This document shows positions 26,209 through 49,863 of a stretch of 64,000 bases of DNA, piece by piece. Positions within the stretch are counted from its first letter, which is position 1. Each line of letters begins with the position of its first letter. The notes under the pieces were generated by a model. That model searched no databases. It had not been told where the DNA came from and saw only the letters and a program-made list of their open reading frames with translations. A program made the position numbers and the translations under genes. Source of the stretch: Ruminococcus sp. (GTDB lineage: Bacteria > Bacillota > Clostridia > Oscillospirales > Ruminococcaceae); the NCBI GenBank assembly GCA_017470535.1, contig JAFUYP010000076.1, positions 24,564 to 88,563 of the forward strand, written 5' to 3'.

Positions 26209-27057
26209 ATGATGGATTTTTTATCCAATGTTTGGGTAAAAAGGACCGTTGCGGTTTTTAATATCATGTATGTCGGCATCGTTGTCATGCTCACATACGC
26301 AACATTTCTTTATACGCTTGAGATAAATGAGAGCAGTGAAAAGGCTTTTTACGCTATCTATATCGTAGCGAGCATCGTTTTCATGCTGCTCATGCTCTTT
26401 TCAAGGGATCAGGTGGTCACGGGCATATCGTCGCTGGTGCTGCTGACGTCGGTGTTCTGTCTGCTGTTGTTTAACATGGGCAACTGGCTGCTCATAATAC
26501 CGCCGTTCATAGTGGGGCTCGTGGTGTTCTTTGCCTGCGGACTGGGCGATACGACCAAGGTGGTCATGGGCACTATCTTCCTGCTCATGTATGTGCTGGG
26601 CGTTGTGGCGTATATCGTTATGAATATGCTTATGACAGGAAACTCGACAGAAACGCTCATCGACATAAACTTAGAGCCGGGCACAGAGGTGTATGACCTT
26701 TACAAATCCTCGGCTGAGAAGATAAATGTCATGACAAACTACGAGAATACTGTATCCCCGAACGGCAAGTACAGGTTCTATATAGCAGACGTGCAGAACA
26801 GCTTCAAGGGCTCTGTGAACATCTATGTAGTGCCTTACGGTGAGGACAAGGATCTGAAATTCTTCAAGCTCAGACAGAAGGGTATCAAGAAGACCATATC
26901 CAGCCAGGGCAAGAGGGGCTATGTTCCCGATGTGGGCTGGCTCGATGATACACATATCTTCTACCGTCTGGTAGACGGCGGCGAGGAGCACGTTTCGGAA
27001 GTAAACGACGCTATCATGCCGGATAAGCAGTATCTGGGATTCTTAGGGCTCAGCTGA
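26209..27057 (+). CDS. Membrane protein with extracytoplasmic C-terminal domain, 282 aa
   Basis: Five hydrophobic segments occupy about residues 10-150, followed by a soluble domain of about 120 residues that reads like a beta-propeller or six-bladed fragment (NTVSPNGKYRFYIADVQNSFKGSVNIYVVPYG, then GYVPDVGWLDDTHIFYRL). The pattern SPNGKYRFY...W.DD.HIFYRL is common in DUF5412-like proteins, a tentative comparison. TATGGAGGAATACAGTT precedes the ATG. It is a single gene with its own promoter and terminator. Function unknown. Confidence 0.8.
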   Translation: MMDFLSNVWVKRTVAVFNIMYVGIVVMLTYATFLYTLEINESSEKAFYAIYIVASIVFMLLMLFSRDQVVTGISSLVLLTSVFCLLLFNMGNWLLIIPPFIVGLVVFFACGLGDTTKVVMGTIFLLMYVLGVVAYIVMNMLMTGNSTETLIDINLEPGTEVYDLYKSSAEKINVMTNYENTVSPNGKYRFYIADVQNSFKGSVNIYVVPYGEDKDLKFFKLRQKGIKKTISSQGKRGYVPDVGWLDDTHIFYRLVDGGEEHVSEVNDAIMPDKQYLGFLGLS

Positions 27058-27116: not shown

Positions 27117-27145
27117 TTGACAAATAAGGGGGAGTGTGGTATAAT
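27117..27145 (+). promoter_or_regulatory. Perfect consensus promoter of a non-coding RNA
   Basis: TTGACA (27117-27122), a 17-base spacer and TATAAT (27140-27145). Both boxes match the sigma-A consensus exactly, yet no protein gene follows on this strand. Confidence 0.9.
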
Positions 27146-27151
27146 TTGTTT

Positions 27152-27275
27152 AAGGAAATAGCCCGAGCTTCGGGGGAGCGACTAAACAACCCCCGATATT
27201 AGGCGCTTTCCTGTTAAGAGTATTTTTGGTATAGAACACCGCCAATACCTTTTTAGGTTTCGGCGGTGTTTTCCT
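27152..27275 (+). ncRNA. Pseudoknot-forming small RNA, candidate type I antitoxin
   Basis: Between a perfect promoter and a strong terminator there is about 124 bases with no ORF. The 5' half is closed by AGGAAA/TTTCCT (27153-27158 with 27207-27212). Inside, GGGGG (27172-27176) can pair with CCCCC (27190-27194), and AGCGaCTAA (27177-27185) with TTAGgCGCT (27199-27207), interleaved as an H-type pseudoknot. A hairpin CCCGA/TCGGG could compete. The RNA points at a convergent small hydrophobic peptide gene, and segments CCCCGATA and GGGGAGC recur within that gene's 3' region, so the two transcripts can pair. I know no named RNA family that matches. Confidence 0.65.
27235..27274. terminator. Terminator shared by the convergent RNA and peptide transcripts
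   Basis: AACACCGCC (27235-27243) pairs with GGCGGTGTT (27262-27270); inside it ACCT pairs with AGGT around TTTT. A T-run follows on the plus strand; on the minus strand the T-run is short. Confidence 0.8.
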
Positions 27276-27307
27276 TAATTGCCCCGATAAGGGGAGCTAA
27301 GTACTCG

Positions 27308-27406
27308 CTATTTCTTCTTGTGGAAGATCAGATAGCAAAGCGTGACAAGCGAAACAATTATGCTTGTAAAGAAAAAGAGGTTATCATATGTAACGTATTC
27401 CTGCAT
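27308..27406 (-). CDS. 32-residue hydrophobic peptide, putative holin-like type I toxin
   Basis: The predicted peptide starts MQEYVTYDNLFFF, has one membrane helix (FFFTSIIVSLVTLCYLIF) and ends HKKK, the form of the putative holin-like toxin family and of other type I toxins. ATG 27406 is chosen because GGAGG lies eight bases upstream; ATG 27412 is too close. The Shine-Dalgarno can be hidden by pairing with CCTCC just upstream, a usual toxin-mRNA feature. A consensus promoter drives it. The 3' end converges on the small RNA at 27152-27275. It is too short for similarity alone to be decisive. Confidence 0.65.
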   Translation of the reverse strand: MQEYVTYDNLFFFTSIIVSLVTLCYLIFHKKK

Positions 27407-27472
27407 TGCCATCACCTCCTTGACCTCAGGAGGAAACCGCCGTATCCCGTATCCGGGACTCGAACCGATATT

Positions 27473-27502
27473 ATTATACCACATTTCACCGAAAAATGTC
27501 AA
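27473..27502 (-). promoter_or_regulatory. Consensus promoter of the small peptide gene
   Basis: On the minus strand TTGACA (27497-27502), an 18-base spacer and TATAAT (27473-27478). The bases before the -10 (TGTGG) match those before the -10 of the convergent RNA promoter. Confidence 0.85.
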
Positions 27503-27652: not shown

Positions 27653-28621
27653 ATGCTATTCAGAAGGGTACTTAGTTTCGGTGCGGCTGTTATGACTGCT
27701 CTTAGCTGCGGATTCAGCGTAATGGCAGAGGAGGAAGAGGAAGAGCCGATAAAATTCAAATATGATAAAAGCATGGTGGTAAGCGACAAGGACAAGGTGG
27801 GGTATACCTTCAGCTTCGATAAGGACGACTGGCAGAAGTATATAAAGCTCACTCCCGACTCAAAGAAGGCAGGGCTTTCGATAGAGTCCACTACAAAGGC
27901 GGCTTATCAGGGTGCTACGCTCAAAGTGTATGCAGACAACTCGTCAGATATTGGCGACGCTCAGAACCAGTGCTGGATGGCGACCGATGCGACGGGGGCT
28001 AATCTTTATCCCGATGCGACTGAGGACGATAAGGTCATCACTATGGGGCTTGAGATAGATGCAAAGGATCTCGGCGTAACTACATTTGACGGCGCTATGG
28101 TGGTGTTCACATACCGATTTGACGAGGACGGTGTCAACAGTCTTATGGGCAACTCGGTGTACGCATTCACTGCAAAGGACGACTATTCCGATGCGAGCGA
28201 CTGCAAGGTGATAAAGAAAAACACCACGACCGACGACAACATAAAGCAGTTCCGTGACGCTATGATAAACGCACCTTTAAAGGGCAACACCACAAAGATC
28301 ATCATCGAGATACCTGTGCAGAAGTCCTATTCGGGCGAGATAATGAGCATTGATAACCTTGATATATGCTTGCAGGGCGATGCAGGGTATATAAAGAACC
28401 TTGACGGCTACAACGAGAGCGCAACGCCCAAAGAAACTGTCGAGGAGCTTGAAATAACAGGCAAGGGCGGCAGCAATGCGGCTGCCGGTGATGAAAGCAC
28501 GGCAGACAGCGAAGACAAAAAGCCCTCTACTGCGGTAATTATCATCGTGGTCGTAGCAGGCTCGCTCGTGTTTGCAGGCATCGTTGTTTTCTTTGTTGTA
28601 AAGAAGAATAAATTCCTGTAA
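27653..28621 (+). CDS. Membrane-anchored extracellular protein, 322 aa, unknown function
   Basis: A signal peptide (LSFGAAVMTALSCGFSVMA) is followed by a run of glutamates, an extracellular domain of about 230 residues that looks beta-rich (YTFSFDKDDWQKYIKL, GMVVFTYRF-like strands), a low-complexity linker with DESTADSEDKKPST, and a C-terminal membrane helix (VIIIVVVAGSLVFAGIVVFFV) with KKNK stop. The layout is that of a single-pass surface protein. Several Ruminococcus surface and carbohydrate-binding proteins have similar form, but no CBM, cohesin or dockerin is recognised. AAAGGA lies 13 bases before the ATG. Confidence 0.8.
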   Translation: MLFRRVLSFGAAVMTALSCGFSVMAEEEEEEPIKFKYDKSMVVSDKDKVGYTFSFDKDDWQKYIKLTPDSKKAGLSIESTTKAAYQGATLKVYADNSSDIGDAQNQCWMATDATGANLYPDATEDDKVITMGLEIDAKDLGVTTFDGAMVVFTYRFDEDGVNSLMGNSVYAFTAKDDYSDASDCKVIKKNTTTDDNIKQFRDAMINAPLKGNTTKIIIEIPVQKSYSGEIMSIDNLDICLQGDAGYIKNLDGYNESATPKETVEELEITGKGGSNAAAGDESTADSEDKKPSTAVIIIVVVAGSLVFAGIVVFFVVKKNKFL

Positions 28622-49720: not shown

Positions 49721-49863
49721 ATTATCACACTTCTTTCGTTTGAGTCTGTGGATATTATAACACGGAACGACGATTTGTCAATACATTTTTTTGGACAGTT
49801 GACGAATGCCGCAGCTATTTGTTGAAAATATATTAACTTTGTGAAAAATGAATAAATTTTACC

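Follow-up and report, generated by a model that had tools for sequence, protein, structure and literature searches.

The locus lies in a 64-kb stretch of Ruminococcus DNA, the whole of which is called the window here. It consists of two promoters that face each other, a predicted plus-strand RNA and a minus-strand frame for a small peptide. The following features were annotated:

27117..27145, plus strand: promoter of the antitoxin RNA, TTGACA-17-TATAAT (12/12 match)
27152..27275, plus strand: antitoxin RNA of about 124 nt, 5' start and 3' end predicted
27153..27212, plus strand: nested hairpin domain P1/P2/P3, from the minimum-energy fold and the centroid
27235..27270, both RNAs: terminator hairpin CACCGCC..GGCGGTG, inverted repeat 27235-27250/27255-27270
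27282..27294, 3' region of the toxin mRNA: small inverted repeat CCCC-GATAA-GGGG, which the original prediction took for repeated pseudoknot strands
27308..27406, minus strand: frame of the toxin peptide, 32 residues, with a good Shine-Dalgarno (SD) box upstream
27415..27433, minus strand: SD hairpin predicted to sequester the ribosome-binding site (leader fold z -3.2)
27437..27441, minus strand: leader GGCGG box adjoining the anti-SD arm, found in 17/17 complete genus leaders
27446..27457, minus strand: 5' leader hairpin CCCGGATACGGG of the predicted leader fold
27502..27473, minus strand: promoter of the toxin mRNA, TTGACA-18-TATAAT (12/12 match)

The two facing promoters had been predicted as such, and both are perfect 12/12 matches of the sigma-70 type in which TG precedes the -10 element (spacers of 17 on the plus and 18 on the minus strand). 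A search of both strands of the window found eight perfect 12/12 promoters with spacers of 16-18. Apart from the facing pair, two perfect promoters at 49781 (-) and 49864 (+) are divergent and stand back to back, 83 bases apart. The genes on either side of the locus (26209-27057 and 27653-28621) were without a match in a Pfam search. Judged from sequence comparison, the promoters, the RNA of about 124 nt and the 32-residue putative membrane peptide are a conserved unit. We infer that both strands are transcribed and that the peptide is toxic.

The peptide, MQEYVTYDNLFFFTSIIVSLVTLCYLIFHKKK, has one hydrophobic segment (best 19-mer hydropathy 2.45) and a KKK end, and an upstream ATG at 27412 would give a 34-residue form. 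The 32-residue frame was confirmed, and its SD sequence can be sequestered by CCTCC as described before. Conservation of the frame had been named beforehand as a test. Among 19 copies, 70.7% of the single-change codon differences were synonymous compared with 21.5% expected, so the peptide frame is under strong selection. Against Hol_Tox (PF16935) the window peptide scored 15.6 bits in its 32-residue and 15.4 bits in its 34-residue form, with a cut-off of 23.3, whereas a sibling that is 67% identical to it (G001:C20) passed with 24.2 bits. One distant member from the order also passed (23.5 bits), and the other scanned peptides stayed below the cut-off or had no match. At E <= 0.1, Hol_Tox matched 8 of the 16 aligned genus peptides, and PF16935 was found in three of 14 named control genomes, namely B. 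subtilis, L. lactis and T. maritima. Moreover, one distant relative of the peptide matched PepG1 (E 3.4e-4, 20.1 bits, cut-off 70), while the window peptide had no PepG1 match at E <= 1. The NCBIfam model small_EYxxD (NF045534) gave 18.4 bits for the window peptide with a cut-off of 29. By sequence, its kin are Hol_Tox/TxpA-like peptides and, remotely, PepG1.

The predicted fold of the antitoxin RNA had a z of -5.0 against shuffled sequences. A nested hairpin of three stems (P1 27153-27158/27207-27212, P2 27161-27163/27202-27204, P3 27170-27176/27190-27196) is followed by the terminator. Minimum-energy folds of 17 of the 19 genus copies, judged by eye, follow the same P1-P2-P3 plan; chimeric folding detected no covariation of P1 and P2 inside the genus (p 0.56). 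By layout, the two predicted RNAs would share at least 36 nt, the terminator, in reverse-complementary form at their 3' ends. The shared hairpin of the original prediction is present as an inverted repeat, but its U-rich tail lies on the antitoxin side and the U-tract in the toxin direction is weak (mean of 6.1 vs 3.8 T in nine positions, 19 copies). Some other copies carry a CCCCTTTTAAAAGG-type sequence at the position of the 27282-27294 repeat. No Rfam 15 family reached its gathering score in the window, and in eight loci searched at E <= 1 no match of the antitoxin RNA did so. The matches in these eight loci comprised RNase P in L065 and an rnk-leader of 27.7 bits (gathering score 50); a PyrR match of 32.2 bits (gathering score 54) overlaps the antitoxin region of the copy on contig C51 on the opposite strand. 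A known Rfam RNA was rejected as identity of the antitoxin RNA, as no match of the RNA reached a gathering score in the window or in the eight loci.

Among the named genome collection, the relatives were Ruminococcus MAGs, some of them from sheep and deer rumen. The source genome holds four peptide copies and five RNA matches, with three modules on contig C51. In seven genus genomes the peptide profile matched six and the RNA model R1 all seven. R1 produced 36 matches at E <= 1e-5; it was built from 14 of the 19 copies, the window copy included, so that 14 of the 36 were found by construction. An intact peptide gene adjoins 31 of the 36 matches. The strict automatic rule, which asks for a small hydrophobic SD-led frame beside the RNA match, accounts for 25 of them, and six that it missed were recognized by eye (G001:C83, G001:C110, G003:C39, G005:C2:2595176, G005:C2:3429747 and G004:C31:25836). 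Two further matches adjoin a peptide gene with an in-frame stop and three have no findable peptide (G000:C28, G003:C72 and G005:C2:3429365). As 19 of the 36 matches had been collected through the peptide, the other 17 give the fair figure for linkage: 12 intact, two broken and three without peptide. Homologous RNAs without any peptide, raised in advance as a point against the module, do exist but are few (3/36, or 3/17 of those not collected through the peptide). The antitoxin promoter is present in all 19 aligned genus copies. In this comparison the linkage, both promoters, the selected frame and the SD hairpin together lend good support to a type I module of a convergent RNA and a holin-like peptide, as had been proposed.

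Several further observations concern the genus copies. The source genome contains an orphan antitoxin-like RNA gene with a terminator and without a recognisable peptide gene (L219, G000:C28:71717-71837). At L216, L217, L220 and L221 the same antitoxin RNA family stands beside a different peptide type of similar size (MYLTLSDFILLMELLLRVVEIQIMCYLFFRNKKRK and similar), and RNA and toxin types therefore seem to be shuffled. Modules also occur in arrays (L009, L083), two tandem and one inverted on contig C51 and three tandem on G004:C26, one of the latter being broken by a stop codon. Nothing pointed to a phage origin: one query pattern confirmed no relatives in viral_contigs, and the peptide of one relative had 0 matches in 50,697 phage records at E <= 0.1.

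RNA and leader were compared across the toxin gene in the 17 of 19 copies used for the Mantel, duplex-energy and helix analyses, two leaders being cut by contig ends. Divergence of the RNA correlated with that of the leader on the other side of the CDS (partial Mantel r 0.415 given the CDS, p 2e-4), and in the genus RNA and leader form two sequence classes that coincide across it. Given the leader, a correlation between the RNA and the CDS was seen too (partial r 0.32, p 0.003, 17 copies). In the genus the 3' half of the antitoxin showed a modest preference for the SD region of its cognate leader (19 loci), with an uncorrected p of 0.023 from one of five half-against-half pairings of which the other four were null. 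Outside the genus the same preference was found (p 0.007, 78 loci); three of the other four pairings favoured the cognate partner as well (p 2e-4, 0.005 and 2e-4), as similar or cis-paired halves would, and therefore the SD preference is not exclusive. Whole-domain duplex energies did not discriminate between cognate and other partners (-33.9 vs -34.2, 17 genus loci), and no cognate preference was found between the antitoxin 5' arm and the leader anti-SD arm (p 0.65, 73 loci). By our own count, 14 of 17 genus copies have, among their five best helices, one between a CUCC-type strand of the RNA and the SD box, for example CUCCUUAU/AUAAGGAG with -13.7 kcal/mol. The window copy is outside those 14; for it, the top-ranking helices fall on other sites, one of them joining UUCCUGU to GCAGGAA where the frame begins. 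Besides, the leader GGCGG box could pair with ACCGCC of the terminator. At the site of the 5' leader hairpin other copies have different arms, e.g. TTCCA..TGGAA.

We consider the window locus to be, probably, a chromosomal type I toxin-antitoxin module that would act through a 3' duplex and pairing at the SD region. The minus-strand mRNA would encode a Hol_Tox/TxpA-like membrane peptide of 32 residues with a single helix, and would have its SD sequence locked in the leader hairpin, and the convergent plus-strand RNA would be the antitoxin. In step (a) a duplex would form over the shared 3' end, comprising at least the 36-nt terminator and a longer stretch in the case of read-through by the toxin transcript. 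In step (b) a CUCC-type strand would pair with the SD region of the mRNA; the proposed SD-binding strand is the 3' strand of P1, TTTCCT (27207-27212), together with the bases that follow.

Relatives of the peptide are found well beyond the genus. With a profile of 20 peptides, matches were obtained in 52 of the 394 genomes sampled in the order and in 16 of the 291 sampled in the class, six of these 16 being from the window's order; an earlier profile of 16 genus peptides had given hits in 29 of 297 genomes from the family. All three genome sets are samples and no census. Altogether 161 peptide ORFs were found, 148 of them with full flanks and 97 with both promoters recognised. Facing promoters (at least 10/12, within 330 nt) were present at 139 of the 148 ORFs and at 35 in a wrong-strand control, and the toxin promoter was recognised for 100 of 148, with 28 in the corresponding control.

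An alignment of the antitoxin RNA's first 70 nt with the toxin leader showed that the two resemble each other in the same sense. Across the 97 loci, genus included, the mean z of this likeness was 4.8 with 74% over 2, compared with a mean z of 0.32 and 10% over 2 for antisense likeness at the same loci. The same RNAs aligned to their own toxin CDS gave a z of 0.1. The likeness begins soon after both promoters. Of 31 genus groups outside the window's genus, which come almost entirely from its order, 28 had a same-sense mean z above 2; these groups rest on a hand-entered map of loci to genera with three MAGs as groups of their own and 17 of the 31 represented by a single locus, and on plain shuffles. 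In the window's genus mimicry did not exceed chance (mean z 0.7, 22 loci), with a same-sense z of 1.0 for the copy in the window. Outside the genus the cognate leader aligned with a score of 15.3 vs 8.9 for others (75 loci), ranking first in 30 of the 75 and among the top five in 60. For 14 paralogs of one genus the scores were 17.6 for the cognate leader vs 14.8. The 97 loci were split into 75 outside and 22 inside the genus for the mimicry ranks and into 78 and 19 for the half pairings, and 74 served for arm covariation.

The shared 5' element is a hairpin, for instance GGAGCAUACC..ACGGUUGCUCC, and between lineages its two arms vary jointly. The hairpin arms of the antitoxin covary (p 4e-4, 74 loci outside the genus). 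In one lineage (L099, L101, L120, L127, L135, L141) the two RNAs have another 5' element in common, GGAACUGCCGCUU..GGCGGCUCAGUC, and the shared element thus appears to change as a pair. Outside the order, the facing promoter was recognised for eight of 17 peptide ORFs and not for the other nine; seven of these eight class loci had a same-sense z above 2. This class test comprised 19 rows, two of them second starts, and used plain instead of dinucleotide shuffles; for ORFs lacking a recognised toxin promoter, the 110 nt directly upstream were taken. A good test bed would be two genomes from a single genus (L053, L054, L163-L172, L182) that have ten peptide matches each and well preserved same-sense leader copies.

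Modules of related design have been described before. TxpA/RatA and other Hol_Tox modules share the small single-helix peptide, the convergent RNA and the 3' overlap. However, the overlap in TxpA/RatA is 100-140 bp according to PMC6562991, compared with a predicted minimum of 36 nt here; moreover, SD-region pairing is proposed for the present locus and leader mimicry is seen in its relatives. TxpA-like sequences in C. bolteae are mentioned in PMC6563280 from an earlier in silico search. SprG/SprF is alike in that the antitoxin RNA overlaps the toxin RNA and has a purine-rich 5' end (PMC8158120). The par locus of pAD1 (Fst/RNA II) has convergent promoters, an intergenic hairpin and a 5' stem-loop on the toxin SD (PMC7472228). 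The par-like layout of the original prediction holds in this respect, but membership in par/Fst does not. In par/Fst direct repeats make the two RNAs complementary, whereas the wider family here has same-sense copies (antisense z 0.32 vs same-sense 4.8, 97 loci) and, of par-like repeats, only a short match at the SD region. None of the 16 aligned genus peptides contains proline and they therefore lack the Fst-type PXXXG motif (PMC7472228). The par/Fst terminator is bidirectional; here the tail in the toxin direction is weak (3.8 T in nine vs 6.1 on the antitoxin side). We rejected par/Fst membership as the toxin motif and the direct repeats that create complementarity are absent. The C. difficile modules (RCd8, RCd9, RCd10 and kin) are likewise convergent, from Clostridia and with small toxin genes, but by their description in PMC6563280 the toxins have no homology to known type I toxins and the complementary region is long. 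A literature search limited to open-licence papers found no description of this peptide/RNA family or of leader mimicry.

On these sequence comparisons, we regard the locus studied here as a divergent representative of a type I toxin-antitoxin family that is widespread. Among its wider relatives the 5' domain of the antitoxin is a same-sense copy of the toxin leader, with the other arm of the hairpin often SD-like. Given the same-sense likeness, the antitoxin carries the anti-SD arm of the leader, and since this arm and the SD are complementary, the RNA could supply an anti-SD in trans and so lock the SD, while its 3' end would pair with that of the mRNA. We tentatively propose, at somewhat less than even confidence, that in this large Clostridia family the antitoxin RNA reproduces the leader of its target in the same sense but lacks the ribosome-binding site. 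It may repress by delivering the anti-SD arm of the leader, by exchange of hairpin strands or by titration of a factor that binds the leader, not by classical antisense pairing with the leader; the window copy would have diverged and kept only the hairpin plan and the SD-binding strand. We infer this role of the mimicry, and the biological role of the module, from the comparisons above.

A competing explanation, which we regard as less likely, is that the 3' overlap alone acts, as in TxpA/RatA, with RNase III cutting the duplex. The 5' likeness would then be the relic of an inverted duplication of promoter and leader, kept by conversion of palindromic arms. The 3' ends of the RNAs do overlap by layout, and the B. 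subtilis systems reviewed in PMC6562991 act at the 3' end. The onset of the likeness soon after both promoters, the cognate preference in the 14 paralogs (17.6 vs 14.8), which conversion would also produce, and the loss of mimicry in the window's genus fit a relic too. Nevertheless, neither the covariation of the hairpin arms nor the preference of the 3' half for its own SD would be expected of a relic, and the likeness persists in 28 of 31 genus groups.

Returning to the toxin-antitoxin reading, it is quite improbable that the peptide is instead a small, harmless membrane protein whose expression is regulated by an RNA encoded in cis. The loci are chromosomal and multi-copy and the toxicity is putative, which would suit such a pair. 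However, the layout, the SD lock, the single helix with its KKK end and the tandem multiplication are traits of type I toxins, and the 67% identical sibling passes the Hol_Tox cut-off (24.2 vs 23.3 bits). We give a small chance to a dual antitoxin like SprF1, whose purine-rich, SD-like 5' end would also bind ribosomes and damp translation. SD-like 5' ends are present, AAGGAAA in the window and e.g. AAAAAGGAG in L056, and SprF1 is a precedent (PMC8158120), but in the predicted hairpin these purines at the 5' end are paired to the CUCC-type strand of the same RNA.

The original prediction had the antitoxin RNA switch between an H-type pseudoknot and a duplex with dispersed repeats of the mRNA, a mechanism we now find highly improbable. 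Its strands, GGGGG/CCCCC and AGCGACTAA (27177-27185)/TTAGGCGCT (27199-27207), are present in the window, where the second stem has -7.5 kcal/mol, and one further lineage (L038a, L028) reaches -8.4 and -8.6. However, the second stem is not conserved: in the 11 of 19 copies tested (class-A-like), it was no stronger with the cognate than with another copy's partner (-4.6 vs -4.1 kcal/mol, p = 0.16) or than with shuffled loops (mean z -0.15). It also competes with the nested fold because both need the same bases, and pseudoknot formation would require two stems of that fold to open. The dispersed repeats at 27191/27282 and of CCGATATTA at 27193/27465 exist, but in the window copy alone (1/19 copies for the former at 8 or more bases, 1/17 copies with a promoter region for the latter), and the second CCGATATTA copy (27465-27473) reaches into the -10 region, so that no more than a part of it would be transcribed. 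Both the pseudoknot, taken as a conserved element, and the repeats as pairing sites were rejected on these grounds. Pairing of a CUCC-type strand with the SD region together with the 3' overlap has better support than the pseudoknot mechanism, though still modest.

The common view of type I antitoxins is that they are antisense RNAs. Were target and antitoxin to share one 5' sequence in the same sense across a family from many genera of Clostridia, this would be a distinct design of mRNA silencing. The multi-copy small peptide genes of Ruminococcus and its relatives, most of which are below every family cut-off tried, would also gain a name.
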